A program made the position numbers and the translations under genes. This document shows, one piece after another, positions 7,130 to 62,639 of a DNA stretch of 64,000 nt; position 1 is the stretch's first letter; each line of letters begins with the position of its first letter. The notes below the pieces were generated by a model. It was not told the DNA's origin, searched no databases, and saw only the letters and a list, made by a program, of their open reading frames with translations. Source of the stretch: Branchiostoma floridae (lineage: Eukaryota; Chordata; Leptocardii; Amphioxiformes; Branchiostomatidae); NCBI RefSeq assembly GCF_000003815.2, contig NC_049991.1, positions 19,213,307 through 19,277,306 on the forward strand, given 5' to 3'.

Positions 7130-10100
7130 CTACAACACAGGTTTTAAGGGTAGAGTGCAGTAGTCATCAAACATCCCGGCCAGTTCCAGTCTCTCCAGCT
7201 CGATCAGAACTCTCTGTACCTCCTGACGTGTGTAGGGGAGGGGCCCATGTCTCTGCCAGTACCTAACAACGTAGAAATAAGAGAACTATGACTATTATGT
7301 TACAATCTTAAGACTTTAGATCCGTGCACAAAATAAAGCGCTTACCAACAAGCTTTCAATCAGTCCTCTGATCCTTCTCAAGTTGAAATGACCCAAAACC
7401 TAAGTCACAATTGCTATGACTGTGAAAGGCAACAAGTATAATTTTTATAAAAATCTCAATTATGGAAAAATTTTACTTCTCTGCCAGTACCTAACAACGT
7501 AAACACTCAGATAAACTATTGAGCTACATGTAGTTCAACTGTAATATCCAACACAAAAATTGGACTCACCCAAATTTCGACTGAACAGCACCAGTCTTTG
7601 TCAAGGACAGTTGAACTAGCTCAATAATGACTTCTACCAACACAGATGAACTTTCAAGTTATTACTCAGATAAACTGAGGTACAGAATAAAGAGACTCTT
7701 TTTTACACAACCCCTGCTTTATTTCCAGGCGATTCTGACTGACTGGTTCACATAATGTACAGCATACAGTTGACAGAATATGATGCAGTCACAAATGCGA
7801 AGTACACAAATGTCATGTATTTACTAAATTATAATTTAGTACATATACATAAAAATCAAAAAGTACCTGAAGACGTATCTGGCAGGCAACTGCTTGTAGT
7901 TCTCCCTCACACTCTCCAGCAACATCACATCCACATTGTTAAGATCTGAGGAAAAAAAGATAAAAAAACTATCAGAAAAAAAAAAAAAACTTGCTTCTGG
8001 AGTCTGTGGTAACCATTACAGTAGCTAAAGTTGACATGTGATGGAGATGAGGGCAAAGTTTAGATAGTCCAATAAGACACAAAAGAATCTCACGTATATG
8101 TTACAACTTAAAACCCTATATCCGTACACAACATAAGGCGCTTACCAACAAGCTTTTGATCAGTAAAGTTGAAATGACCCAAAGCCTAAGTCACACATCC
8201 AGACCAGAAGTGTGACATTAGTAAAGGGTCACAGGTGCTTGGCAGTTGGTATCGGCCCCCGTCTCGGATGCTTGTTGGTAAGCGCTTTATTTTGTGTACG
8301 GATATAGGGTTTTAGATTGTAACATGATGTTGACTACCGTCACAGATGAACTTGCATTCAAGTATAAGGATCTCACCTAGCCTGGATGCCAACACTCTCC
8401 AGTCGTTTTGCAGTGGGCTGGGGTAACACAGTAGCAGCAGCAGTTTCTCCCACTTCTCCTTGGGTAGGCCGAGGGTGTCCTCCTCCAGACTAGTGTCCAT
8501 TAGTACACTCATGATCTGGGCAAGACAACAACATGCTTCTTTTTTAATCTAATCAAAAAGAAATATTTTCTAATATGTACAGATTATATGAATAAACCTG
8601 AGGTTGTAGCTTTCATCATTATGCACATGAAAAAAATAGCTTAATTGTAGTGGGATGTATCCCTGCATCAGGGATTCCTGCAGCAGTATAATCAGCTTTC
8701 ATCATTATGTAACGAAAAACAAAGTTTCATTACAGTGGTATGTACCAAAGTGCTGTATTTTCTCATAGAAAAAATTAATATTACGGGCTATAAAACCTGA
8801 TTACGTCATCCACACAGCCCCCCAAAAAATAGGATTTAGAATTCTTTTATGCCCATCTATCAATATTCGTTACAGCTCCATTCTTTCTTAATTCAAAAAT
8901 GAGAAAATAATGAAAGGTCAGAATGCCAATTTAGCCAACCTAAATACCATAAAAACGAGTATTACAGTAAAACAAAAACTCCCAATTTACTCACATCTTT
9001 CTTGGTGCTGTCTTGATGCTGCTGTTCCTTGCACAAAGTGGTGGTGGGATGCCCGTCATGATATTCAATGGAATTCAACTCTTGCCTATAAACAAGTCAC
9101 AGTCGACACACAAAATTAGACAATTACATATCTGTTAACTGTTACAAAATATGTCTATATGTTACTAATCATTATACTGAATACTGCCATGTTACAAATT
9201 CTTAACATTCTGCCATGAACTTGCAATTAATTACACTTGTTTACAAGTGTAACGAAACAATATGCATGGGAGATCATCTGACTAGTATAAGCCATTTACT
9301 TGTCTGCCATTTTGATTTTGAAGAAGAAATGTTTAGAAAATCGATCAGCCAACAAGTCTGCAAGCTCTAGATAAATGTTTTGCAGTAATTTGCTTGCCAA
9401 TGGTGTCCTCTTGATCATTGGGCAGAAAAAAGAAAAGGACCAGGACACAGCCCTGCATCTGCTACACTTTTTGACACCAGTACACAATCAACATTTAATC
9501 CTGTCATAACGGTCAATGAGCTTCGGCCTCCTTAAAATTTTTGGAGATCACTAAAAGGTTGATATAAATACTTGTGTATACTACCTGAAAATCTACCCCC
9601 ATCACATTGGATCAAGCAAAATTACTTGACTGTGAACAAATTGGAACAGCTCTGTGGAGACACAGTTGTCAATAAGAAGAAGTTAATCTACAACACAACT
9701 CAAACAATAAACGAAAGTTGTGATAATGACTTACCTGCTCGTTGCTCGTCTTGGTGCAGGTACAGGTTTCTTCTGTCCGTCTCCTGGAGCCTCTGATGGG
9801 GGAGGGGGGCATCTGGTGGCCTTTCTACCTCTCAGGCTGGGGTTCTGGTAAAGGGGTTCTGCCTTCAAATCTGGAACCATGTCAGCAAAGTCTTGAGCAA
9901 AGAATATCAGCTGGAAAGAACATGCATCTACCAAGACCATCTACGGTAATCTTCCCAGAGTGTCCCATAGTCTCAGGCAGAAGCGTGTCCACTTCAGAGG
10001 TCATTGCAACTGCGCAAGTTTGTTTGTTTGTTTGTTTGTTTGTGCAAGTGAAGAAGTGAAGAAGTGACCTCTTCACTCATCCTCTGGAGGGCAAGAGGAA

Positions 10101-13100
10101 AGACCTACTCAAGAAAGCTTACCTACCCAGCAACCAGTTCCAGAGACACCAGAAGTGAGGACTTGGGAACAGCTGTGAAAGACCAAGTGCTATGGAGAGA
10201 TGTTGTGTATTGCCTTACTCCGCCCGCCAGGGACGAAAGATGATAATGATGATGAAAGTCTTGTCAAAACTTATGATAGCATTTAACTACTGGGTGAGGT
10301 ATGCAATACCAAACAAAGGCAGTCTGGTAGTGCCTACAAGGGTCTGAATGGACCAAAGAGATAGAATGATAATGTTAATACATCAGAAGAATACTACTCT
10401 ACACTAACACAATAACTCTATTAAGGATGTGATGCTTTTACCAGCATATTCAAATGTTTCGCTGAAAAAGTGGCAGACTACCAGACAAATGTACTAAGTA
10501 TCTGTCAAGGAAAGTGAACTGAAGCTACATGTAGAATATGATAGTTTCCAGGCTACTAAAAAAGACTGTCTCCAGCTTTCATTTCTTTTCTGTCCTACTC
10601 ATTGTTTGGGAACCCATGGTCTTTATTCTTTCTGTAAGATCTGTCATTTTAAGCTCAGTAAAATATGTTTTCATCAAATTATCATGAAGTTAAGATTTTT
10701 TGGACAAATGGATTGAAATTTTTGTCAATTCCAACAAGCAAATCTCCATAAAGGGACAGACAAATAGGTCCAGGCAGGCTCTTAGCCAGGCATACATCTT
10801 TTGGACACGATGCCCTAAGAATGATAAGAAATCAGGTGCACAAGTTGCCCTTACACAGAGGAGCAGATCCTCTGACAAACATAACATTCTGATTGACCAG
10901 GGATGTTATTAATAGTAGGTCACTTGCAATTGTGGTCACAGACAGTAATTCTGCCCCTCAGGATACCTTTAATGCACCATTTTAACTTAGGCCACACCAA
11001 TTTAATTTCTTGGTTCACGGATTCGCTCGCTCCTATTTTTTGGGAAAAAAAATAAAAATAAAAATTACCACTCAGCAAATTTTCACCATTAATGAAACCA
11101 TTCACCAACTTTCTGGTGTAGCAAATTGGCCTTTATATTATAAGCTCCTTAGAGTGTGGGTACAGGTGCTGTTACTGTACAAAAATAGTGTTTTTGTACT
11201 TTTTTCAAGCTGAAAACTTTTTTCTTTATGTTTTGGATTAGCCGTTACCTTTACCCCAACCATTTTACAATTTTTATTTTTATTTTTATTTCGCCCTCTC
11301 GCTCCATATTTTTTATGAAAAAATTCGTGAACCAAGAAATTAAATTGGTGTGGCCTTAGAATTCTCTAAAACTCTGCACCATGGAAGGTGGATGCCACCA
11401 GACCCCCCTACAATACTCACGCCTATCAACTGCCGCGACTCACCAAGAAATTTGGTCCCCCCATAATTCAATCCTAGCTAAGAGCCTGTCCTGTAGACAG
11501 CCCTGATATTACTGGCAAAAAAAACGAAGGCTGTACCTGGAATGTTGTAGTATGCCATTGACGAAGGATCGGGAAGATCAGTCAGAAGTGGCATGGACCC
11601 CGACCTTTTCACGTTCGCAGCTACCTTAAGTCTCTGGGCGTCTTCCCTGTGGTGATCTTCATTTGACATACACTTCATATAGACTCTACTTCTCTCACTA
11701 ACATGTGACGTTGGTGCGTTCATGTAGACGTGTCTGTCACTAGGCCGTTGCACGCTTGTTGCATGTGAGTTTTCGGTAGCTCCATTGTCTTTTTCCATAG
11801 GTACTATGCTGTAATACGGCATGTCGTGCTCCGTTGGTTTTCTGTCTATTGTTCTGTCTGGAACATTCTTGTATCTACGCTCTTCCTTTTGACGCTGCGC
11901 TCTCTTTTTGGGGAGGAGTGGCTTCTCTTGTGTCGCCAACCCGTTACATTTGTTACTGTTGGCGTCTCTTTGTGCAGCAGCAGCAGCATCTTTAAACTCA
12001 TCTGAGCAGGAGAGGAATCAAAACAAGGTCCAAATTTGTAACTACGAGGGGTGATCAGACCTCAACCTAACCAAGAAATAATCACAACTCAGATTTTCAA
12101 GCATAGATGGCAAGTATTAACTATTCAAAGTCTTTTATGAATGTGTACCAAAATTCAACTCATTGTGATTATTACTTTGCAGGCGACACCCAGTAATGGT
12201 AGGTACAGTGTAAGAGTTCAGTTCAGTGAGAGAAGGAAAGAGAGTAAGAGAGTGTAAGAGAGAACGAAGGAATAAAAACATGGACAATTGAGCTGCAACC
12301 TGAGGTGCGCAGGTATGACTATGAACTTGTGCTTCAGAATTTGAATTTTGGCTCCATATCACAAAAAACTACACATTGCATATCTTAAACACATTTCAGT
12401 AATGTGTTAAAAACTTAAACCTAAAACTTAAATCAGATCACCCTGAGTATATACCCCCACACAAGAGGTTATCAAACTGACAACATCTGATCCTGATCCA
12501 TCATGGAAACGTCCTAGAGGCCGCCCAAGAGGGAGATGGGAAGATCGGGTCTTCAACACACTCCAGGAGCTGGGGGTCCCCAGATCCGACTGGACTGTCC
12601 ACGCCCAGTGTAGAACAACGTGGCGAGAACTGTCCGAACTGTCTGTAGCCGCCACGCATCAACATATGATGCATGCAAACGATTGATTGATTGAGTATAT
12701 CAGCCTGGGTACCATCCAGATAGTAGTTCTCTCCAACATTTATTATACACTATATACAGTCACTTCTCTGCTGTTCTCTAATGTCTGGAACTGTGTAAAT
12801 TTTGGACAAGGGCGCTGATTGGTCCCTACACATCAGGGAATAAAGGAATGGGGTCAAGCACTCGCTCAAACAGGCCTTCCAACGCCGGACAAGCCCTCCG
12901 TCCGCTTGTGGGAGGGCCTGTTGTCACCGAACGAGCACTCTAGTCTAGAACTATTCCTTAAATTTAATTCGCTCATTAACTGACGTTACCACCAAAAGGT
13001 TTCAATGTGGAGGTCTCCAGGGTAGCAGAAATGAACATAGGAGCAAACTACTATCCGGATGGTACCCAGGCTATGAGCATAGCCAATTAAATGAGAAACA

Positions 13101-16100
13101 TACCAACAACAATGTTGGGTGGACAGGATGCTTTCAATGTGGAAGGAAGCCCCGGATCTGTACTTCTTGGCTTCATCGACTTGTCTTCTTGTGTGGGGGA
13201 GGGAGTCGTTGGCAATACTCGGCGCCCGTCACTCGTTTGGGACTCTGACCGGCGGTACGGAACAGGAGGGGGGCACCCTGTACTGGAAAGCCGCGAACTC
13301 GTCGTGTGCTCGTTGGCGGAAGACGCTACGTTGGGAGTAGAAGGCAGGGGTCTTTTTTCTGCTCGTACAGGCTTGTGGAAGCGTTTCGAATGAGGCCCGG
13401 AAGTGGGAAGACGCTGTGTTTGAGCCTGCTTCTGTGCTAACGGTGGGGAGGGGCATTTTCCCAAGGATGTTGGTGGGTTGGATCCGAGGCCTGCTTTTCT
13501 GAAGGGAGGGGAGAGCGCTCGATGCGTTGGGGACGGAGACCGGGAGGTTTTGGGGTGTGGGGAGAGTCTTGGTGATGGCTGAGTGGGGGTAGGTTGCAAT
13601 TGGGTGGGTGGGGATGCACCATGTGATGGTTGGGTGGGGGTAGGTTGGGTGCGTGGGGACACACCATGTGATAAGTGGGTGGGTGGACGTGGGTCGGTAG
13701 GAGGAGGAGGTATTGGCAGAGGCCGGGACTGGACACCATCGGACGACCCAGGCCTGGGACGCGTGGGAGGACCGAGACGAGACTGGAACATTCTCAACTT
13801 CGTCACCAACTCCAACCTGGCTCGCGGAGGCAGCTTCACGATATACACACCTGGACACAAACCAAAAAAAAGAGTTTTTTTTAAAGATTGTACATTAGTC
13901 TGACTGTCATTCAATTAAACTAGTAAGCACAAACAAAAACTGGCTCCTGATCATGATTTATATGATTACTATTTCCATTTACAATGTATGTCCTGATAGA
14001 TAACACAAGACAGTAACCAGCTGTTGTGTGTTGGTTCGAATAAAGCTCCTAAACGGGGAACATGCGGCTCCAGCGTCTTTTCTGAAGATGTGGCGTAAGT
14101 GTGAACGGTTGGCTTGAGGTCTCCTTCTCCACATATATCTACAAGACAGTAACCAATGCAGTCTAGGAAACCAGAGCCTAACATCTGCTTGGAATCTGAG
14201 TGAAGGCAAATTTTAGATAGTGCAAACAGGAATTAAAAGGAAGACAAATGTAAGACAAGGTTGCTGTTTGAGACAGTTGTATCTATATCTGTATCTATAT
14301 AGCCAATATAACCGCTCTTCGGCGTAACACACCAGCTTCTGCATCTGTATCTATATATTAGCTGGTATAACCAAGCTTCGGCATAACACACCAGCTTCTG
14401 TATCTGTATACGCCGGCATAACTGCCCTTCGGTGTTAAACACCAGCTTCTGTATCTGTATCTGAATAGCCGGTATAACCGTGCTTCGGCGTAACACACCA
14501 GCTTATATCTGTATCTATATATATAGCATAACACACCAGCTTCGCAGGCATGCAGCGCAGCAGCAGCTGGTTATATTACACCGAACAACCCGTCACACCT
14601 AACTTTTGCATCTATCTGCAAGCATTCTTTGGAACTATCCATTTTGTAGCTACAAAATTGCCTACAAACTTTCGAAAATCAACACAAGGACGAGCTTGAT
14701 AACTGTAATTAATTTTGCACGTTTATCTGCAAGCGTTCTTTAAATCTATCCATTTTGTAGCTACAAAATTGCCTTCAAACTTGAGAAAATCAACACTACC
14801 TCTCCTTTTTCCTGGCTATCAAAAAATCAACCCCACCTCTCCTTTTTCCCGGCTGTCCGATGATGAGCTTCAGGAAGAACTGTCCGTCCTCCTGGCTGAC
14901 GTTCTGGTATTCAGGGTCATCGACCTCTACCTGCGCGATGTCCCACAGCCCGTGGCTCTGGGCAGACTGCATGTTGGTCATGAGGGAGGTGAAGCTCAGT
15001 GAAGCCTCCGTCAGGTTGATGACGAACTCGTCTGGGAGGGACGGGTCGGGACTCTGCACGGACTGACACATCCAGCGTCCTCCTGTGATTAAAGTGGACA
15101 GAGTTATACCCTGGATAACTGTAATAAAGTTAGGTTGGATGTTGAAGCTCAGCGAAACCTACGTCAGGTTGATGTCGAACTCGTCTGGGAGGGACGGGTT
15201 GGGACTCTGCACGGACTGACACATCCACCGTCCTCCTGTGGTTAAAGGGACAGAGTTATACCCTGGATAACTGTAATAAATTTAGGTTGGATGTTGAAGC
15301 TCAGCGAAACCTACGTCAGGTTGATGTCGAACTCGTCTGGGAGGGACGGGTCGGGACTCTGCACGGACTGACACATCCACCGTCCCCCTGTGGTTAAAGG
15401 GACAGAGTTATACCCTGGATAACTGTAATAAATTTAGGTTGGATGTTGAAGCTCAGCGAAACCTACGTCAGGTTGATGTCGAACTCGTCTGGGAGGGACG
15501 GGTTGGGACTCTGCACGGACTGACACATCCACCGTCCTCCTGTGGTTAAAGGGACAGAGTTATACCCTGGATAACTGTAATAAATTTAGGTTGGATGTTG
15601 AAGCTCAGCGAAACCTACGTCAGGTTGATGTCGAACTCGTCTGGGAGGGACGGGTCGGGACTCTGCACGGACTGACACATCCACCGTCCCCCTGTGGTTA
15701 AAGGGACAGAGTTATACCCTGGATAACTGTAATAAATTTAGGTTGGATGTTGAAGCTCAGCGAAACCTACGTCAGGTTGATGTCGAACTCGTCTGGGAGG
15801 GACGGGTTGGGACTCTGCACGGCCTGACACATCCAGCGTCCCCCTGTGGTTAAAGGGGACAGAGTTATACCCTGGATAACTGTAATAAATTTAGGTTGGA
15901 TGTTGAAGCTCAGCGAAACCTACGTCAGGTTGATGTCGAACTCGTCTGGGAGGGACGGGTCGGGACTCTGCACGGACTGACACATCCAGCGTCCTCCTGT
16001 GGTTAAAGGGGACAGAGTTATACCCTGGATAACTGTAATAAATTTAGGTTGGATGTTGAAGCTCAGCGAAACCTACGTCAGGTTGATGACGAACTCGTCT

Positions 16101-19100
16101 GGGAGGGACGGGTCGGGACTCTGCACAGACTGACACATCCAGCGTCCTCCTGCGGTTAAAAGGGACAGAGTTATACCCTGGATAACTGTAATATATTTAG
16201 GATGGATGTTAGCCATCAAGGAGGTCAAGCTCAGCGAAACCTCCGTCAGGTTGATGACGAACTTGTCTGGGAGGGACGTCTGCAAACACTGACACATCCA
16301 CCGTCCCCCTGTGGTTAAAGGGGAGCAAATTGTACACAAGATAACTGTCATGAATTAAAGGCACAAGCGAAACAAAATTACATTTTTCAACCCTAGCTAC
16401 CATTCTATATACCTAAAGCTAGTTTACCTTTAGCCGTCGGATAACCTATATCGGTTGTTTACTGAATCAGAGCACTGTTCCAGGAATATCAAAGTCTTTC
16501 ACACTGTAATAGAATTTAAGGTATTGCATTTTAAAACCTTCGTCTGTCGACTTGATGTACCCTGTTTGTAAGAACAAAACGAATATAAGCTACGCACCGA
16601 TAAAAAAAGGTAAACTAGCGTTACATCTAAAGATGGTTTTACTAATCATATTGGTTGGCCTTTTAGATACGGCCTTGCCATCAATAGATCTGCAGTGGAT
16701 TACTTATTCCTGGACTTGAGCTGACCAGTCAAAAATTTGGGGAAGTCCAATTTTTGTGTTGGAAATTACAGATCAACTTGTTCCACTTCCAGAATAACTT
16801 CTAACACAGGTGAATTTTCAAGTTAACTGAGAGATCTGCCGATAGAAGTAAGGGATTTCCTTCTACATGTGTGTCAGGGCTCTAGCCAGCATCCGTTTTT
16901 CCGTCAATTGACGGAATTTGCTGCGTGTGACGGAAAATTTTTTAAACCAATCCGTCAACCTTGACGGACAAAAAATTCTTGGTGGAAACTACAGGTGGCT
17001 TGGGGACGCTGTCCACGGTCGGAAAGCCACACACTGTTTGTTTTGCTATTGTTATGATTGTTGACTTAGTGCGTCGGTGCCCTTTCGCATACGATAATCT
17101 CATTAAAAACACGTTTTTCAAGGTCTCAGTTCCGTCTTTCTAACTTGATTTTCGCGGTTTTCGCGACAATGGGAATTGGCTGACGGAAAAAAATTTCGAG
17201 CTGGCTAGAGCCCTGATTTATGTACACCAGAAAGGTACTCACGATCTCTCATGCGCCTCCTGACTTCTTTGTCCCATACCTCCACTCCGTTGTCCGGTCC
17301 CGACTTCCTGCCCCGCACTTCCTGGAACAGCAGGGTACAGCTGTCCAGCACCAGCGCCCAGTACCTGGACGATGAAACCAACTCAGGTGAAAATAGAATA
17401 CAACACGGTGTATTCCGTATCGCCCAAGGTATCAGCCCGACCGCTTTGGCCGTCGGGCGATCCGACCCGCGGGAGAAAACCCATGTTTTGATGCGAAATG
17501 CGACAGAAGTTGAACAAATTTGGTGCCCTCAAACAAAAAGTATGACAACAGCAATGTTCCAACGTCCGAATCAGGTATTCGAATTGCCAATTTGGTCAGC
17601 TAGAAACAGTTTGATTTAATCGAATGGAGCCTGTGTGATACGCCTTTCGAACCTGTGCGATATGGAAACGTACGGCCCAGAACACCCGTATCGAACGTTT
17701 TTGCGTCACAGGTAATTATTGACATAAAAATGAGTACCTACCAGGGCTAGAAATTCATTTTTGGGATGAGGTGCGCTGGTGCACCCAGCTTAAGAAATTG
17801 GGTGCACCAAAATTTTATTGGGTGCACCACTTAAAAGTAATAACCTAGTGATAAAACTTAGATACAAGGTATCAAATTCTTAAACAAGTACCATGATAGA
17901 CATTTTTATTATCTTTCTAACACATATATGAGAATATGATGTATACTAGACTAGTATACTTTGATATCTTTACATACACAACCTAAAAAAATATTTGGGT
18001 GCACCCTGTGCACCCTCAGAAAATAATTGGGTGCACAATTGTGGGTGCACCTAGGTGCACATGCACCCAGTATTTCGAGCCCTGCTAAGCTTCGGCTAGG
18101 GCCGTCCCTCGGATAGGACATTAAATGGAGGTCCCGTGTATGAGGAGAGCCACACCCCACACACGTTAAAGAACCTGCCACACTTATCAAAAAGAGTAGG
18201 GGACCTTCCCGGTGTGAGTGGATCAAACCATTCTGGCCAAATTGGGGTAGGGAATTTCCCAAGCAGCCCTCGTAACCCCTGCTTTACCTGCATCACACAT
18301 ATTTTACCTGCACCCTCTTAATTTAGGAACCACTGCTATTTTTTCTTTTATACTTGATAGGTGGCAACATTCAATGCAGCTAATAAAATCCACATATACC
18401 TACATCATATGTAATTTAGACATAAAACCCAGTACATGAACCAGTGCAGGTTAGGTACAGGTTACACCAGAAATTCCTGCACAGCTCCAATTTTACCTGC
18501 ACTAATTACCTGCATATGCAGGTGGTATTTCGAGCCTTGGTTCAATAAAACAAACGTCGGTACCGGGTACAGACCTCCAATGGCTGCCAGGCACCTGTTG
18601 CATGCATAAGATGTAGGAAAAAGGATGTCAAATGTCACCTACCTAAGGTTTAGTTGGTGAAAATCTCACATTGGCAGGCAAGTCTGACTTCTAAAGAGTG
18701 CATATGGCGATTTTGAAAACATTCGGTTCGGCGCAATGCGCCCCCACAAACAGAATAAGAAACGCTGGTGACCTTTGACCACCCTGATAACACCCAAACT
18801 ATACATACTCTAGACTGTCTAAAACACTCCAAACATGGTAGAAAGCCTATTTTTCTCACGAAATAAAATAGCCAGATCCCCTACCTATAATTTCCGACCC
18901 CAAAATGCCAACATTTCCCAACAAAAAGGCTTCTTACACTTACTTTTGCAAGCCATCTTCAATGGCATCAAAATGCTAATTCTGCGCATGTCTGTAATGG
19001 TGACCTTTCACTTACCTCTCTTCGGCGTCGTTCACCCGCTTGTTCAGCACTCCGCACTCCGAGCCGCAGAACGTGTCACGCTCCAGACAGAACAACCGCC

Positions 19101-22100
19101 AGGGCACCCGCGGGACCTTGTCGTAATACAGGCACAACCGGTAGACTGGCCAGGGAGGGAAAACGGAATATTAGTTCATGCAGCTCTCTACTGTTTCCTC
19201 CCTCTCCGTTTAATGAATGAAGAAGATCTTAAATTTGTTGTACGTTTCAGCTCTCACAAGCTAAGTATAGGTCAGAACGATAAAGTTCTGAGTGCAATGT
19301 AGTTCCGAATAGTCTGAGTACAAGTACGAGTTCTCGTTACGTAAGAGCAAGTTATCTTACTACATGCAACTACAAAGTGTAATGTACAAATGTATGTTAG
19401 TATGTGACTTTGTACAGATTCGACTTCTTCTTATTCCTGTGTCGTAGTACAGGCACAACCGGTAGACTGGCCAGGGAGGGAAAGGGAATTTTAGTTGATC
19501 ATGATGAAGAGGTAAACTCTAAAGTCACACATAAGGGTTCTAGGAAGGATTTATCTATCTATTTATTCATTCAAAATGCAATGGTATTTTAATGTAATGT
19601 TAATTTAAGGCCACACCAATTTAATTTCTTGGTTCACGGATTTTTTCATAAAAAATATGGAGCGAGAGGGCGAAATAAAAATGGTAAAATGGTCGGGATA
19701 AAGGTAACGGCTAATCCAAAACATAAAGAAAAAAAGTTTTCAGCTTGAAAAAAGTACAAAAACACTATTTTTGTACAGTAACAGCACATGTACCCACGCT
19801 TTAAGGAGCTTATAATATAAAGGCCAATTTGCTACACCAGAAAATTGGTGAATGGTTTCATTAATGGTGAAAATTTGCTGAGTGGTAATTTTTATTTTTA
19901 TTTTTTTTCTCAAAAAATAGGAGCGAGCGAATCCGTGAACCAAGAAATTAAATCGGTGTGGCCTAATGGCAAGGAAACAAACAACCAATTAGGGAAAATT
20001 GTGAGGAAGGGGGGTACTGGCCCTTCCAAGGTTAGATTTTGAAAATGTAGAGTAAAAGATGGCATGATAAGGGTTGACAGGATAAGGGGACTTACTGTTA
20101 GTAACTCTTATTAACATCACGTGTAATTTGAAGGACTTTTTGTCAGTTTTGAGCGGCATATCATCATTTATTCAGTGTACAAAATACTTTTCTGGGCTGG
20201 GTTGCACGGCGTGCAACCTGGGGCAAAAACTAGGTTGCACAACTGAATTTCAAGTTGCACAATTCACTAATTTCTGGGGAAAAAGGTACAATACATAACC
20301 TTTTACTATCATGTTACTTATAAGCATCTTTGTTTCAAACTAAAAATCAAGTACATTGACAACAAAATCAAGTTCTGAGGCTCAAAATCTAAGTTGCACC
20401 CTGTGCAACCTGAGTTTAGAAGTAAGTTGCACCAAGCAAAAAGTGGTTGCAATGTGCAAGTGTGCAAGTGGGTATTTTGCACGCTGTTATTATACTTGAT
20501 TAGACATTTTTCAACAAGTAAATGATAGCAAAGTACCATGTACTAGTAAAAAGTTCTTAAACTACAGAACTCTGGTAGCTTTCTATATGAACATGACTGC
20601 TAAAGAAGTAACTGAATACTGTCGCTTTACCGTGCTCCTGTGGAGTGGTGGACAGCTCAACCCAGTACTGAAAAGTACAAAAAAATTAGTTAGGACAGTT
20701 TAAGATAAATGTTAGAAAAAGCACAAACCTCTGATCCTCTTCTTCTTTGATCAAACTTAAACTCAAAGCACAATGCTAGGCCCTGCTAATTAGTATTTTG
20801 GCTGTTGGAATTTAAAATCAAAAGAAAAAAGGCTGAATTGGAACATCAAGCTAAAAACAGATTCTGATAGGGAAGTGTTGAAAAAATTTCTTTAAGATCT
20901 GATAATTTGAGAAACTTTTATCATTTTATGAATCTTTAGAGTTTACGTTGTCCCTTCAAGTTAACTGATTACCAAGGGAGCCCTTATAATCAAGATATTA
21001 ACGAAATATACATTTTAGGTAAACATCATAGGAGTAAATAAAACAGAAATCAAAACAATAACAAATGAATCCAAAATCAATAAACGTTCAACGGTCTTTT
21101 AGGGTCAACACTGCTAATTTAAGTTATTCTGTTTAGTCTGTAAATAGATACAACTGTTACTACTAGTACGTATACCGGTGTACTCGACAAGTCAAAAGCC
21201 ATGTTACAAAGGAATGTCTTAATCTACTGTTCGTTTCAACTGCTCGTCCCGCATCAGTGAAAGATAAAGGTCATATTTACATAGGAGTATAAACAGACAA
21301 ACCGGATGGTGAGGAGAATGCAAAGAATGTACCCCCAGGGTGCTCAATTTAGCTGTACTGTTTGATACACAAGTTTATAACTGCATGTGTGTAACAATAA
21401 AAGTCTCTTTTCTATTAAAAAAAGGTACTCTCACTGGTCAGACTTTGAACCAGGATGTTTTTCCTGGCTCTAATTGTGTCTAAGTGAACCAGCAAGGCAA
21501 ACATACAGTACATGTACATGTATGTTAACAGATGTGTGACGCTGAATCTTTCTTTTACAATGATCGTAAAAGGGAAGCACATCTAGTTTTCTAAATTCTA
21601 CTGGCTCACTGCAGTCAGCCTTGTCAGAAACTTTTAAAGTAGTAGGCTAATATCTGAAAGTAGCAGGCAAGCCGCTTTGCGGCTTGCAGCGAGCCACAAA
21701 GTGGCGAGCGGGGGGTAGGTACGGGAGGGGGGTTGCCCCCCTCCTGTTGGGGGGGTTTGGGGGGCCTCCCCCAGGAAAAATTTGTAAATTTAGACCCCTA
21801 AACATGGTTTTTGGTGTATTCTGGGCAACTTTTCTTGTCAGCTTATATCTTGGAATTAACCTCTACCATTTTGTGAAAGAATCCATCCACAATCAGGCAT
21901 GTTGTGTTTCTAGTTATAGTCCAGAAAATAGTCACAGGCACACAGAGCTAGGCCCATGCACTCAAAGGTCCAGATATTAGAACTCCGCCTCCTTGGAGGT
22001 GTGGTGGCAGTGTCTGCTGCAAGCTCAGATAATGTAAACAACAGAGAAAACCTAATACACATGTGGGACATTCGTCAAAATGACAGTTTTCAGATCCCCG

Positions 22101-23245
22101 AAGACCCAGTAAGTTATCAGAAAACTGACAGAGATTTATCAAGACAAATTGCTGGGGGATTTTGTAACAAAAGTAGGCGGCTGAAAAATGTAAAGTAGGC
22201 GGGGAAAATAGCCGGCTGCCGGCTGGATTTGACAAGGCTGACTGCAGACTGAGTTCACACAACCAATCAACTTACTCATGATACCTTGGGAAAGTGTGAT
22301 GTCAGAGATTGATTGAATGATTGATTGATTGATTGATTGATTGGGGGACAATCTCACCCCCAATCCATGGCTTGAAATACTGGGTGCACTTTTGTACAAT
22401 ATTTTTTACATGCACACCTTAAATATTTGTCAGTAATGTCCATTTATTTTCCATTGTACTCAGCATATTCCTGACATGTAACTTGTCATTCGACATTTTT
22501 TAAATGGTGCACCTCATGTTTTAGACAAGCTGTACCAAGGCCCCAAAATGAATTGAGCCCTACTAGTTACCTCACACGGTTACACCACATACATACAAAT
22601 AACGCTATCATTTTTTACTGCAATTAATGATATTCTAAACATGTGTATATACAGTATATCTGTTCAGCAATTGATACTAATGAATATCACATCAACATAT
22701 AGATTGATGGATTACTATCAATTCAGCTTGGGCACAGACGCTTATTTTGCCAAGGAAGCAATTTGCCCCACCACAAAACACAGCACGAGGGCCCTAAATG
22801 CCACAATCCCATGAATGTGATGTTTTCATCTTTGGTCAGCACAAATTTCAAGAATTTTGGAAGGTTTAAGATGGTCTAAAACAAAAAGGATATATGCGAG
22901 TGCTAGTTTCTTTACGAGTCCAGTACCAAATCACTTGGGTTTCATTTGGGGGGGGTTGCAAGTCCAGAACCGGTCCGGAGTACCAGTATGCATCCCTACG
23001 AGATACACATGTAGATATTAGGGATTTAATGTCAACTCTATGCTGGGCTTATGACCTTTCAGGGCAAAAGGGCTATAGTTTGGCGTGAAAGATTCATACT
23101 TGGCTTTTGACTTCTAAAGCAAAGGTTTACATTTTAACATGAGGGGTCTGGTATCCTGGCTATAATTAGTTACCTTAGTCTTCTTGAATCCTTGACCCTT
23201 TACACCCAGTAGACACAGCGGTCCTTCCTTGATGACTGTAGCCAT
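7130..23245 (-). CDS. PH/PTB-like, proline-rich, YxN-motif, death-domain adaptor
   Basis: Twelve minus-strand exons join in frame: 23245-23174, 20667-20631, 19145-19016, 17364-17243, 15082-14837, 13850-13104, 12001-11537, 9891-9735, 9085-8995, 8515-8377, 7945-7867, 7262-7130 (TAG). Total 2418 nt, 805 residues. Residues 1-120 look like a PH domain (EGPLCLL start, alternating strands, late EVWDKEV helix). Residues 121-230 are a second PH/PTB-like domain with an LVTKLRMF helix. Residues 235-450 are proline/serine-rich. Residues 495-623 carry tyrosine motifs YKNV 495, YMNA 544, YNIP 603 and YQNP 621, plus YSIV 515; pYxN is the Grb2 SH2 consensus. PVPAPR at 649-654 fits the CD2AP/CIN85 SH3 pattern PxxxPR. 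Residues 710-800 form a death domain (DWRVLASRL at 727-735, a later RYWQRH, and a final LIELERLELAGMF helix). The layout recalls DOK-type docking proteins with a death domain added. Exons and splice phases are seen directly; domain names are inferred. An in-frame TAG just upstream supports the start at 23245. Confidence 0.8.
7290..8340. repeat. Degenerate foldback repeats in last introns
   Basis: A segment with CGCTTACCAACAAGCTTT and AAGTTGAAATGACCCAAA occurs at 7340-7400 and 8139-8190, and inverted at 8265-8320, so 8089-8330 is an inverted repeat. A related plus-strand copy is at 43610-43740. Also a second short repeat at 7475-7500 copies the intron border of exon 12. A poly-A/T run lies at 7950-7990. 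Confidence 0.55.
10066..10240 (+). mobile_element. LINE C-terminal stub
   Basis: The plus frame ends in KDQVLWRDVVYCLTPPARDER followed by stop and a GATGATAATGATGATGA tail, the same class of LINE 3' end as 62190-62380. Strongly truncated; sits in the intron between adaptor exons 7 and 8. Confidence 0.6.
10775..11488. mobile_element. hAT-like MITE (CAGGCTTTTAGC family) split by a Harbinger MITE
   Basis: Termini CAGGCTCTTAGCCAGG and CTAGCTAAGAGCCTG. Internal sequence matches the intact copies at 23512-23856 and 35677-36037. A Harbinger element at 10990-11355 interrupts it. The outer flanks do not show a clear TSD in this copy. Confidence 0.7.
10990..11355. mobile_element. PIF/Harbinger MITE (copy 1)
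   Basis: Begins GGCCACACCAATTTAATTTC and ends with the exact inverse GGTGTGGCC. Flanked by TTA on both sides (10987-10989 and 11356-11358), the TSD typical of PIF/Harbinger. Termini of about 35 bp are near-perfect inverted repeats. Confidence 0.85.
12450..12690 (+). mobile_element. LINE C-terminal stub with (ATTG)n tail
   Basis: The plus frame has SWKRPRGRPRGRWEDRVF and a later W-x-E-LSELSVAA end, followed by a GATTGATTGATTG tail. This is a non-LTR retroelement 3' end; the tail suggests an RTE/CR1-like microsatellite end. Confidence 0.65.
12708..13070. mobile_element. MITE with GCCTGGGTACCATCC ends
   Basis: GCCTGGGTACCATCCAGATA near 12708 is inverted at 13046-13070 (CCGGATGGTACCCAGGC). Interior is nearly 300 bp with no coding capacity. 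A related element begins at about 43893. Confidence 0.6.
14280..14545. repeat. Minisatellite, about 62-bp unit
   Basis: Four to five units of TTCGGCGTAACACACCAGC followed by TTCTGTATCTGTATCTATAT-type sequence. Next to it, 14605-14800 holds a roughly 120-bp tandem duplication sharing CCATTTTGTAGCTACAAAA. Confidence 0.8.
15083..16330 (-). repeat. Exon-5-derived tandem array (8 units of about 152 bp)
   Basis: Eight extra copies of the 3' splice site plus first ~75 nt of adaptor exon 5 (real exon 15082-14837) lie head to tail upstream of it. The anchor GTTGATG occurs at 15015 (real exon), 15168, 15320, 15472, 15624, 15776, 15929, 16082 and 16250. Units lack the second half of the exon. Seven units carry TAG within the copied exon part (ACGTAG in place of ACGGAG); the most distal, at 16250, keeps the sense codon. 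The copies keep an AG acceptor and polypyrimidine-like context but no clear donor. Confidence 0.9.
16418..16620. mobile_element. MITE, CTAGTTTACC family (copy 2)
   Basis: Inverted termini GCTAGTTTACCTTTA and AAAGGTAAACTAGC, interior GGATAACCTATAT and CGTCTGTCGACTTGAT as in the 61857 copy. Confidence 0.6.
16875..17215. mobile_element. hAT-like MITE, TGACGG family (copy 1)
   Basis: Termini CAGGGCTCTAGCCAGC and GCTGGCTAGAGCCCTG are perfect inverses. Interior has several TCCGTCA/TGACGGA hexamers near both ends. Flanking 8-mers ATGTGTGT and ATTTATGT agree at 6 of 8, a probable decayed TSD. Copy 2 at 42447-42786 has a perfect TSD. Confidence 0.75.
17380..17720. mobile_element. Interspersed repeat, AATACAACACGGTG family (copy 1)
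   Basis: Shares long stretches with 63060-63425: AATACAACACGGTGTATTCC, GATCCGACCCGCGGGAG, TTTTGATGCGAAATGCG and AACACCCGTATCGAACGTTTT. Ends are not defined; no coding capacity. Confidence 0.6.
17742..18084. mobile_element. hAT-like MITE, TGCACC family (copy 1)
   Basis: Starts CAGGGCTAGAAATTC and ends ATTTCGAGCCCTG. Subterminal sequence is dominated by GGTGCACC/TGCACCCA repeats. Other copies: 53092-53436 and a truncated one at about 22367-22560. Confidence 0.7.
18092..18290. mobile_element. tRNA-derived SINE fragment
   Basis: Matches the middle and 3' part of the SINE at 44931-45416 (GTCCCTCGGATAGGACAT, GTTAAAGAACC, GGATCAAACCATTC). The tRNA-like head is missing. Confidence 0.65.
18291..18540. 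mobile_element. hAT-like MITE, CCTGCA family (truncated copy)
   Basis: Contains repeated ACCTGCA and ends in GGTATTTCGAGCC. It abuts the SINE fragment, so its left end is lost. Full copies: 30254-30594 and 35058-35377. Confidence 0.6.
19609..19963. mobile_element. PIF/Harbinger MITE (copy 2, inverted)
   Basis: Inverted relative to 10990-11355 and highly similar. Flanked by TAA on both sides (19606-19608 and 19964-19966). GGCCACACC inverted termini. Confidence 0.85.
20190..20490. mobile_element. Probable MITE with GGTTGCAC repeats
   Basis: Many GGTTGCAC/GTGCAACC hexamers near both ends, the same architecture as the TGCACC and CTTGCC families. Termini are eroded and no TSD was found. Confidence 0.45.
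21615..22243. mobile_element. DNA element with TCAGCCTTGTCA ends
   Basis: TCAGCCTTGTCA at the left is inverted as TGACAAGGCTGA at the right. CTGCAG is present immediately outside both ends and may be the TSD. Interior includes a C/G-homopolymer-rich patch (21700-21775) and no credible coding frame. Confidence 0.6.
22244..23173. other. First-intron sequence of the adaptor
   Basis: Contains an ATTG microsatellite at 22310-22345, a truncated TGCACC-family MITE (about 22367-22560) and otherwise unrecognised A/T-rich sequence. Confidence 0.5.
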
Positions 23246-26388: not shown

Positions 26389-29300
26389 ATGGGACGGAAG
26401 AAGAAGAAGCAGATGAAGCCTTGGTGCTGGTATCCTTTTCAAACCCTACATAACGCCCACGTCGTAGTGTACATACGTAAGCTGGGGGTGGGAGGTGGGC
26501 GATTTTTCCTAACAAAGGGTTTTCCTTTCCTCAAACCTTGTAGTTGAAGATACCTTGAAGATTCCTCAAGCGACTGGTGTTTTGAACAAAGGGTCAGTGC
26601 CCGGTCATTGCCCGTTTTCAAAATCTTTGTTGTTGTTTTTATCTATCCAGTTTCTTGAGTTTCTTTTATAGTGCTCCAAAGTTCAAGGAGGCAGTTCTCC
26701 GACGCCTCAGGGGACATTAAGGCGCAGCACTCCCCCTGGACGCTTTGCCCCAACTGAGGGGCGTTGTCCAGTACCCAATCAAGATCAAGATCAAGAAGAT
26801 AGTGCTTATAACACTTATAATACTTATAGTTTGTGTGTTCAGTGGGACGCACAACCAGGTTACACAATGATTCAAGGACGAAACGTTGTGCAAAGCAAGT
26901 TCTATTTTCATTGTCTTACTTCAGACGGCCTAGAAATAGTCGCAGGAGCCATCTTGGGCAACGACTGTCTAAAATGGGCCTTAAAATGCCCCATTTTAAG
27001 TTACAATTTTCAAAAACCCATGGAAGGGGCAAAGGTTGAACCCCAACTTGAACCCCATCACCTCCTCTTGATTGCTCCTTTGCAGTGCTCCCCTTGCAGT
27101 TTTTTTTTTCTAAAAAAAAACGCTGTGGCTATTGACACACTGAGTGTGCCCATAGCCAAACAGGCTATTGACACACCGAGATGCCAACCAGCCAATCAGA
27201 GCTTGTAACATGACTTTCCCGACATTATTTTACACAAGCAACAGTTGATTAGACATTGTTCAAAGGATTAGACATTGGAATCTTTGAATCTTCGAATGAA
27301 CAGACGTATTCAAGTTATGCCCTACATTTGGATACCTGTAAATGCCGCTTTTTCTTGTCTATGTTGGCCGTAGCGTAGTGGGGAGAGCGTTGAACTGCGA
27401 ACCCATGTTATCAGTTCCGACCTCAGTTCGAGTCCGCCCTGGAAATTTTTTTTTTCAATTATCCTTTTACCTTTTTAAAAAATCCATTTGATATAAGAAT
27501 ATTTTCGTCTTGCGACCAGAACCATCAAAACCCACCTTTGGGACTTTTTGGTCTGCATTTTCAAGAGTGCATGTTTAGGTACGTTTATTTTTTTTCAGCC
27601 GCAGATCGGCAGAATCTACCCGCTACGTTCTTATTTTGGACGGTACACTTATTTTTTTTTAAACAGGACCAGGGACCCCTGAAATAATAAAATGTGGGTT
27701 TTTCTAACCATATTTCTGCGGTATTTTTGCTCAACATTCACGTTTTTTTCGGTCGAAGCGGCGCGGATTTCCCCGCCGCTATGTCATCCAAACATCCTAG
27801 CGGTTACGCGTAACATATCGGTCGATCTCGCTATGACGCTACAAAGTTCTTTCACATTAAAATGATGGAAGTAAAACAACAACTATAACTTCGCTTCACT
27901 TGTGATATAAGTTTTGAGACCGCAAATTCTCCCAAACGGCAGGAATTCGTCGGTAAACACAGCTGAAAACGACTGTTCCAAAACCGAGCCAACATGATTA
28001 CATGCGGTGTTTGCATGGTACTAAATATAGTTAGCTCATTTGCATACTTGTGACTTGCTTGATGCGGCCTTTACCGTAAACGCGTGAAAAAGATCGTATT
28101 TTGGGTTGATGATGGACACAGAATGCCATTTGTATTTTCAGAGCGTTGACTGTCAAATATAATCGTAAGATTTTCTCATTTTAGTGGTTCCTAGTGTCAA
28201 AATTAAGACAAATAGTGCACTGAGTGTGTCAATAGCCTGACAGGCTATTGGCACACTGAGTGTGGCAATAGCCTGTTTAGGCCCAGACTCCTGATATTGA
28301 GTCTTATTTTGAGACTACACCTTGTTTTGAACTTTCCTTGACCAGACGTTTCCCCAGGTACTGTAACAGGGAGTTCGAAGATGAAAAGATTCTTATGCAG
28401 CACCAGAGAGCGAAGCACTTCAAGTGTCATATATGTCACAAAAAGTTGTACTCGGGGCCGGGGTTAGCAATTCACTGTGTACAGGTGCGTAACTGCCTTT
28501 TTATGTTTGCTCAGTGTAACTTGCGTGTCTCTTCCACTTCAGGAACATTGTGATATTTGAGACAAGCTCAGCTTCTTTGAGCTTCATTTAGGGAGTCAGC
28601 TTGGAGAAATGTTGTCATCTGTTTTGTCTTTCCCACCATTTGTATGTTTCTTAATGGTGAAGTAAGTTATAAATGAAATAAATGCACAGAATTCTAGCTA
28701 GTGCATTTTAGCATAGTGGGCCACTATGCTATAATTTGTGACCACTACACTAAAATAAGGGCCACTACGCTAATTTTTAACTAGTGAAGTGGTGTTATTA
28801 TGCTATCATTTGTTTGTTCAACAATGTCTAATCAATGTCTGAAGTCTCTCTGAACAATTTGAAAAATGATGATATGCCACTTAGTGACTTAGAACTGACT
28901 AAAATCCTTCAAATTACATGTGATGTTAACAGAGAGCCAACAGAGAGAAAACTCACTGTGGAAGGGCCAAGACCCGCCTTCCAGACGCTACCATGCCATT
29001 CCCACTGAAAATGAAATCCTGGCTAGAACCCTGACGCACTCTTAAGAGTGAGAACTAACTGACACAGAAGCAAGGGTTACAAAAGATATTAAGAAAATTC
29101 TCTCTAACTATATTCAATCAAAGTACATGTACATTAAGAATTATATAAATGGTCTAGAATAGCATCTACAATTATAATGGTACTATCTACATGACTAAAT
29201 ATAATATTGTACTTCTTTCACTGTCAGGTACATAAAGAAACAGTAGATGCAGTACCAAACTCGTTACCAGGGAGAGCGGACATTGAGCTGGAAATCTATG

Positions 29301-54300: not shown

Positions 54301-57300
54301 AATTGTTCAAACATTTCAAAATGAAAGTTTAAACATGTTTGAACCTTTTTTATATTTGTTGGAACATTTGTGAAAGTAATGATATAATTATCTCTTTATT
54401 TAGAACAATTTTCAAACGTCTGTGTTTTTGTTATTGTTCCAACATGTTCCAACATTTTGTGTCATTTTTTCCCTCCATAAAAACTGTTATTGACCCCATA
54501 AACAAAGGTGCTAAGCTGGGTCCTTTGTGTGGCCTTGTATTTTTAGATTTTCTTCAGAAGACACTGGTGAGTCTTTTGTGAGAAGGTGGCAGACAGACGT
54601 AATTTCCTGCACTTGGCAGAGATGTGTGAATTGCCCTCTTTCCAGCCCACTGACCCAGTTTCATCATATTGTTTCCATGTTCGAACATGTGATCACAAAT
54701 GATGCATCTATGTTGGAACAGTTTAGAAACTAACAGAAATAATGTATTTGATGTTAGAAATGTTTCTAACATGTTTGAATACTATAGAAATATTTAGAAC
54801 GTCACATAGATGTTATAAATAGTTCTAAACAGTTACTTATCACAGATTAGATTGTTACAAAGATTTCCAAAATGTTAGAACAAAAGGCAAGAAACACCCT
54901 CTCGGTAATATGGAATCGACTCTATGTACTTACCTGATAGGACAAGTGAATTTTAGAAAACTTGTCCGACCCTGGTTAACCCATGCTAATCAATTACCCG
55001 CCAACATGGTCGTCGGAGAATTCAAATTATAATTAGTATGACGTCAATGATAAGCCTGTATACCGTACCCTAGACAGTTGGCATACAAACATTTGTCTCA
55101 GAAGACAATGGTAGACAGACGGTGGGTTAGGCGACCCGTCTGCCTGGCCTGCACATGATTTTTTAAGGTAAAGGAGGGTTGTGCACGTCCTTCTCCACCC
55201 TCTCGTCTACTGGCACACTAAGTCCCACAGGGACAACACTAGTACTGCATGCCACGTGTAAGACAGCCCCAGCAGATGCAGCTTTCTTGTTTGGAGTTTC
55301 CGTCTCCTAGGAGGATGTAAGGGGTTCCTCCTACCCCTGACTTGTGTATAGCAAGTGTGTCATGCCCTTGACAGTAGACACTCACTGATTTTTGATGATT
55401 AATAATCCACTGACCCTGCGACCTCAAAAAGGCAATGGGACTGCCTTTACCTTCTTACCTGGATAAGAAAGTGACTGTGATAAATGAAAGTGAAAGTCTC
55501 TCACCTCCTCCAAGACGTCTTCCGTCCTGCTCCAGAGTTCCGTGGCGTTCTTCCAGCGACCTTGGTCCACCGCCTGCTGAGTCATCTGTGCCGACTTCTG
55601 CACCGCCTGGAGACCAACATGGTCCAGTAGGGACTGTATGGGAAAGGAAAAATACATTAAACATTCACAAAAACTTTTTGTATCACTTAAGGTTCTTTTT
55701 TTTTCATTTCTATCCTTTATGAACTTAGAAAATTGTTATTGATAAGTCTGTGCCAACTTCTGCACTGCTTGGAGACCAACATGGTCCAGTAGGGACTGCA
55801 TAGGACATGGGAAATACATCAACATTTACAGAAACTTTTTGTAACACTTAAAGTTTTTTTGTTGTCTTCATTTCTATCCTTTATGAACTTAGAAACTTGT
55901 TATTGATAAGTCTGTGCCGACTTCTGCACTGCTTGGAGACCAACATGGTCCAGTAGGGACTGCACAGGACATGGGAAATACATCAACATTCACAAAAACG
56001 TTTTGCAACACGGTCTTTTTTTTTTGTCTTCATTTCTATCTATGTTATTGATAAGTATCCTGTCCAAATCCATATGTATTACAGTCTCTGTGTTTGGCAG
56101 CAGGGCAGGCCTTTAGCCAGGCATGCGTCAACGCGTCATCTGGACGCACTTTTCTTAGAATAACAAGAAATTTGATGCCCCTGGACGCCCTCACACTGGG
56201 AGAAAATCATCTGACAAGCATGAAATTCTGATTGACCAGGGATGCTGCCAGGTCATCTGTGGTCACAGTCTTCTACTGTGACCTCTGTAACAGTATTTTT
56301 ACCTCTAAGGATACCTTAGAATGCACATTTTAAACTTAAAATCATCAAAAACTCCCCCCAGACCCCCCTACAATAGCGCATGGTCTTTTTAGCGAATGCC
56401 CACAAACGCCCACTCTAGACAAGTCCGCGCTGCACGAATCTCATTTTTTTTACTTGGAATATGTCCACGTTGTGCTCCCATGTATTAATCCTGAGTTTCA
56501 AGTCAATCCATCGACCCGAAGTGACATAAATCAAAGTTTTCGATTCTCGATGGTCTTTTTAGCGAACGCCCAGCAAAATGTCTTTTTAGCGAATGGCAAT
56601 GCCCACTATATCCACAAAAATATCAGCCGTCGCGCAACGACACCTAAACCTACCGCCACAAACATGTTCAAAATGGTGTCCCATTGATGTGTACGGAGTT
56701 TCCGTGCTTTACAAGCATTTTAAGTCCCTGTTTTTGGTCAAAACGTACGCCGCCGATACTGCCATACATTAACAATGGCAATTCAAAATGGCGGGCACTA
56801 GTCATGTGACCTCCTTGCGGGACTGTTCTATAAGTATCGCGGGAGGGACTGTTGTAGCATAGCTTATCATACAACCATTTTAGAGTGAATTCTGAACAAG
56901 ATTTTCAATTCATAGTGCTATCATCTGACTGATATTTACAATGTGGTCCTTTTTTCTGTGCTATAATTACCCAGGTTTGAGGAACTTAGTGCAAATATGG
57001 ATATTGATTCTCCTCAGTGCCCAATTAATGTACAAAAGGCTCAGACACATTAGTGTTATAAACCTGACTAGGGGCAGGTAACCAATACTAGAAAAACATA
57101 GCTATTCATTATTAACAATACTATTTACATTATAATAATAACTCTTCACCAAACTGGACTTTTCTTATCTTTATTTATCACAGAAACATTGCTAAAATGA
57201 GGATTTGATTAGATGAGTATCTGTTACAGTGTGTACAAACTTATTTCAAATACAAAAATGTATTTCATTTCACTTCCTAAATATTTTTAAAGTATTGGAA

Positions 57301-62478: not shown

Positions 62479-62639
62479 CTGCAACAACACAATTTCTTTT
62501 GTTTATTGTTCTCTTAGTCCCTTGTTCTTTCAGTCATAGTTGCTAAAAAATGTCCCTAACATGAACTGGACAGCCATAAATATGACGAAAAAGCAGTGTT
62601 GGTTCGTTTCTCAAATTTGCTCATAGATGGCTCTAAAAT

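Follow-up and report, generated by a model that had tools for sequence, protein, structure and literature searches.

Positions 23245..7130 (minus strand) of a 64,000-nucleotide stretch of the Branchiostoma floridae genome (contig NC_049991.1, positions 19,213,307 to 19,277,306; hereafter the window, to which positions below refer) hold a predicted gene of 12 exons encoding 805 residues. We judge the chance to be slightly better than even that its product is an adaptor joining tyrosine-kinase-linked adaptors and a death-domain complex, i.e., a docking-motif scaffold of 805 residues with a death domain. The original prediction, made from the same DNA, had described a DOK/IRS-like docking protein with two N-terminal domains, a motif-rich middle and a C-terminal death domain. 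The middle and the C-terminal part are borne out by the present analysis; the N-terminal domain types are not.

Gene model, tail motifs and death domain

The exon chain was rebuilt from the exon places in the original prediction, and the claimed 12 exons and 805 residues were recovered on the minus strand. Introns had GT-AG ends at 11 of 11 positions, phases agreed at every junction of the rebuilt chain, and the stop codon ended at 7130. The exons, with the GC content of third codon positions (GC3) for exons 1 to 5, and a tandem array that overlaps one of them, were as follows:

Exon 1: 23174..23245, minus strand; start codon, residues 1-24; gene model; GC3 0.50
Exon 2: 20631..20667, minus strand; gene model; GC3 0.75
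Exon 3: 19016..19145, minus strand; gene model; GC3 0.88
Exon 4: 17243..17364, minus strand; the first presumed folded region ends here (~residue 120); GC3 0.78
Exon 5: 14837..15082, minus strand; bulk of the second presumed folded region, without an IRS/PTB profile match; GC3 0.79
Exon 6: 13104..13850, minus strand; tail of the second region, then the proline-rich stretch
Exon 7: 11537..12001, minus strand; tyrosine-motif region with YKN, YMN and YYN; donor uncertain
Exon 8: 9735..9891, minus strand; YQN and a PVPAPR motif; acceptor uncertain
Exon 9: 8995..9085, minus strand; linker; gene model
Exon 10: 8377..8515, minus strand; first part of the death domain; gene model, Pfam and own-genome profile
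Exon 11: 7867..7945, minus strand; middle of the death domain; gene model, Pfam and own-genome profile
Exon 12: 7130..7262, minus strand; end of the death domain and stop codon; gene model, Pfam and own-genome profile
Tandem array: from 14990 to 16210 or, in wider bounds, 16308, no strand; 152-bp unit, 8.0 copies (Tandem Repeats Finder); overlaps the 5′ part of exon 5

The chosen frame was open in 12 of 12 exons, and its sole stop, in exon 12, was the end of the protein. Stops occurred in both alternative frames in 10 of the 12 exons and in one of the two alternatives in exons 2 and 4. GC3 was highest in exons 2-5 (0.75-0.88), followed by exons 10-12 (0.64-0.73); exons 6-9 had 0.46-0.58 and exon 1 had 0.50. 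The GC content of the flanks was 0.32-0.46. Because the frame is open in all exons, the other frames contain stops and the GC3 pattern differs from the flanks, the locus looks like a real coding gene.

Array units upstream of exon 5 copied the exon 5 acceptor and the first ~25 codons, with an in-frame TAG in seven of the eight; they resemble decoys or pseudo-exons. These repeats were considered as alternative mini-exons and rejected because of that TAG, and were also ruled out by the unit donors, which give 73 or 77 bases and shift the frame. That the array repeats the 5′ part of exon 5 and contains stops would suit a model artefact, or a decaying gene without a working protein. However, exon 5 itself is intact downstream of the array, every exon is open, and exons 2-5 and 10-12 show third-position bias. 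We consider an artefact or decay very improbable.

The claimed proline-rich region was found at residues 237-452, which contain 22% proline. YxN, the Grb2 SH2 motif, occurred five times in the protein, four of them among the nine tyrosines within residues 453-690. In 20,000 shuffles the mean number was 0.45 and the fraction reaching four was 0.00035, which agrees with the claimed YxN cluster; since the motif was picked after the sequence had been read, the enrichment is not a pure prediction. PxxxPR motifs, an SH3 motif of CIN85/CD2AP type, were present at 230, 252 and 649, so that the single motif of this type claimed earlier was recovered in three copies. The protein has a tail with several candidate tyrosine docking motifs, as in DOK/IRS docking proteins.

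A Pfam search (24,736 models; curated Death cut-off, 22.6 bits) matched the C-terminal domain alone to Death (PF00531) at 19.1 bits (E = 0.0014). Two other cuts of the domain scored 19.5 and 18.4 bits, with E values of 0.0011 (query with one wrong letter) and 0.0024, respectively. The B. floridae genome contained at least 150 death-domain matches above cut-off (150 of 588 candidates were scored) in a search that matches exon by exon and so favours single-exon domains. Twenty of the 150, hand-picked to spread over contigs, were made into an own-genome profile, on which residues 685-805 scored 17.2 bits, against a maximum of 10.8 bits among 5000 shuffles. The first N-terminal region was unscored on this profile and the second gave -1.1 bits. 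The similarity to death domains exceeds chance (E 0.0011-0.0024 for the domain alone; 0 of 5000 shuffles as high). These findings support, by sequence, the claim that the C-terminal part is a death domain, very diverged and divided among three exons (10-12). A match of the same region to Polycomb BMI-1 (E 0.094) was taken as chance.

N-terminal region and alternative explanations

The original prediction had placed a PH-like domain and a second PH/PTB-like domain in the first 235 residues. Neither was confirmed: Pfam gave no match to a PH domain or to an IRS-type PTB (PF02174) in the protein, and the N-terminal region had no relative in PDB. On an IRS/DOK-PTB profile, whose three left-out members scored 22.9-53.2 bits as a positive control, the second region scored -1.2 bits, and 486 of 2000 shuffles were equally good. 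A six-sequence profile in the test of IRS/DOK membership gave 0.3 bits (equalled by 100 of 1522 scored shuffles; 2000 were made). The first region scored 0.2 bits on a two-sequence DOK PH profile without a positive control (187 of 2000 shuffles equally good). A scan of NCBIfam, a prokaryotic library, found nothing. Profile searches, in sum, did not reject the predicted death domain and did not recognise the predicted N-terminal domains.

A single-sequence structure model of residues 1-233 was too weak to decide the fold. Its structural matches were mixed and mostly unrelated; DOK/IRS chains were not among the 50 matches listed, which proves nothing. By eye, strand-like and helix-like stretches follow one another in an order reminiscent of PH/PTB folds, an impression only. 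When the N-terminal 233 residues were compared with the genome, 16 matches were obtained; 13 fell in the gene's own locus, and the other three, elsewhere, had E values of 0.57 (twice) and 6.5. No N-terminal paralog was detected in the genome by this sequence search, and because there was none beyond the own locus, no alignment of N-terminal relatives was possible. We presume that there are one or two folded domains in the first ~235 residues; their type is unproven.

A search of the genome for the IRS family gave 15 matches, none of them within the window. One (C4, L036) looked by eye like a DOK gene, having a PH domain, a PTB domain and multiple YxxP motifs. Because IRS-family relatives, including this DOK-like gene, sit elsewhere, the window gene is not an ordinary amphioxus DOK. 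Shared intron positions with the DOK-like gene were sought by eye and gave no support: the first PH intron was near but not identical, and the PTB intron differed. Another place in the genome (C6:23863493-23864035; L009/L011) had two tandem IRS-type PTB matches in one 253-residue open frame.

The predicted protein may be a true DOK/IRS-family member, with PH and IRS-type PTB domains, that gained a death domain and lost sequence similarity. A failed profile match does not exclude PH or PTB, because a diverged fold may escape profiles. The N-terminus passed no sequence test that was run, so the claimed DOK/IRS-like docking identity was not confirmed, and DOK/IRS membership is not supported by sequence. 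We regard this explanation as fairly unlikely.

Several points weigh against an adaptor of the proposed kind. The N-terminal domains are unrecognised by sequence, and short linear motifs are weak predictors of function. When the full-length protein was the query, the Pfam Death match (residues 720-790) had 14.6 bits (E = 0.038), and the best match of any cut, 19.5 bits, was under the curated cut-off of 22.6 bits. The score of 17.2 bits on the own-genome profile is modest, because three of the 20 profile members, left out in turn, scored 61-65 bits, and one control run gave up to 14.9 bits for the shuffled versions of another death domain. Junction 7-8 is the weakest of the 11 junctions: acceptor 9910 has the best pyrimidine tract, yet does not keep the frame when joined to the chosen donor 11537.

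Donor 11537 stayed in frame with four of the nine acceptors tried, giving products of 805 (acceptor 9891), 798 (9870), 794 (9858) and 784 (9828) residues. Acceptor 9910 was in frame only with the poor donor 11526, giving 815 residues. The earlier statement that the exons join without phase conflict was correct for the chosen sites at all 11 junctions; at junction 7-8 it depends on the choice of sites. Exon 5 has a second donor-like site at 14800, the use of which would break the frame.

The several in-frame ways of closing junction 7-8, with a best-looking acceptor that misfits the chosen donor, would suit a merger of two adjacent genes, one for a docking-like N-terminal protein and the other for a death-domain protein, with the boundary somewhere between exons 6 and 10. 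The 1.6-kb intron 7, which contains a repeat element, AATAAA/ATTAAA-type signals in introns and in-frame ATGs close to the start of exon 10 point the same way, as does the GC3 of 0.46-0.58 in exons 6-9. This low GC3, however, would also suit a disordered linker. Exon 8 terminates in a canonical GTAAGT donor, the exons are all on one strand, and GT-AG ends and in-phase joining are possible at 11 of 11 junctions. Two merged genes are unlikely, in our view.

Other features of the window

A ~375-bp element was present in two copies (10987-11363 and 19602-19966) that were 93.7% alike, in opposite orientation and with ~35-38-bp inverted ends. At least about 40 more copies were found in the genome at 94-99% identity; they probably belong to a young family resembling miniature inverted-repeat transposable elements. 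Head-to-head with the predicted docking/death gene, with start codons ~3.1 kb apart, were exons (26389 and 28359-28487) of a gene that we take to be ZNF207/BuGZ-like; its Pfam C2H2 fingers were under cut-off. A possible serine carboxypeptidase exon lay at 62248-62502 on the minus strand (Pfam Peptidase_S10 under cut-off, E 0.18). A region of 51-bp minisatellites lay between the arms of an inverted duplication (56374-57300 and 60402-61320; at least 927 bp, 97.8% identity).

Proposed role and comparison with known systems

Under the favoured adaptor reading, the protein would presumably be a cytoplasmic scaffold. Its N-terminal 235 residues, possibly PH-like, may bind the membrane or a partner. 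The YxN sites seen in the tail would, when phosphorylated, recruit Grb2-type SH2 adaptors, and the PxxxPR/PxxP sites would bind SH3 domains. The death domain predicted by sequence would enter a death-domain assembly, and the protein would bridge Grb2-type adaptors and this assembly in immune or cell-fate signalling. Because a PTB domain was not recognised, the proposed link between a receptor tyrosine kinase and a death complex rests on the tail motifs. The stronger version, in which a natural lancelet adaptor leads from a receptor tyrosine kinase to a death-domain complex via a highly diverged PH-PTB, YxN motifs and a death domain, seems to us quite unlikely. Such an adaptor, if real, would be the natural equivalent of an adaptor engineered to couple a kinase to apoptosis.

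As a rule, separate proteins connect growth-factor signalling with death signalling. If one transcript has all the parts, the gene would offer a natural and testable link between a tyrosine-phosphorylation adaptor and a death domain, in an animal near the vertebrate root.

Excerpts of published work give an early count of 139 death domains in B. floridae versus 31 in human (PMC2246300), and describe how death domains have expanded and novel combinations of domains have arisen in this species (PMC2246300; PMC12373286; PMC2575513). Because of this known expansion and these combinations, a new death-domain combination is expected in kind. In the open-licence literature, as far as excerpts cover it, no description of a PH/PTB/death-domain protein was found. 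Death-domain combinations in the lancelet are already described, and the new part is the docking-type partner of the death domain, which, if all the parts share one transcript, would be added to the known combinations.

Like the DOK/IRS docking proteins (DOK1-3, IRS1, FRS2), the window protein has a presumed folded N-terminal part followed by a proline-rich and tyrosine-motif tail with YxN of Grb2 type. Unlike them, it lacks a detectable PH or IRS-type PTB domain and has a death domain. The amphioxus death-caspase and death-NACHT hybrids, as excerpts of PMC2575513 describe them, share with it the species and a newly combined death domain; unlike in those hybrids, the death domain is paired with a docking-type region and not with an enzyme or NACHT. 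The division of the window protein's death domain among three exons may be a further difference. The engineered adaptors of Howard et al. (2003), summarised in the same excerpts (PMC2575513), combine a death effector domain with either PTB or SH2 and redirect tyrosine kinase signalling to apoptosis. The idea is the same, namely that tyrosine-kinase signalling is coupled to a death-fold complex; the engineered adaptors differ from the window protein in being artificial, in using a death effector domain and in having an established phosphotyrosine-binding domain (PMC2575513).
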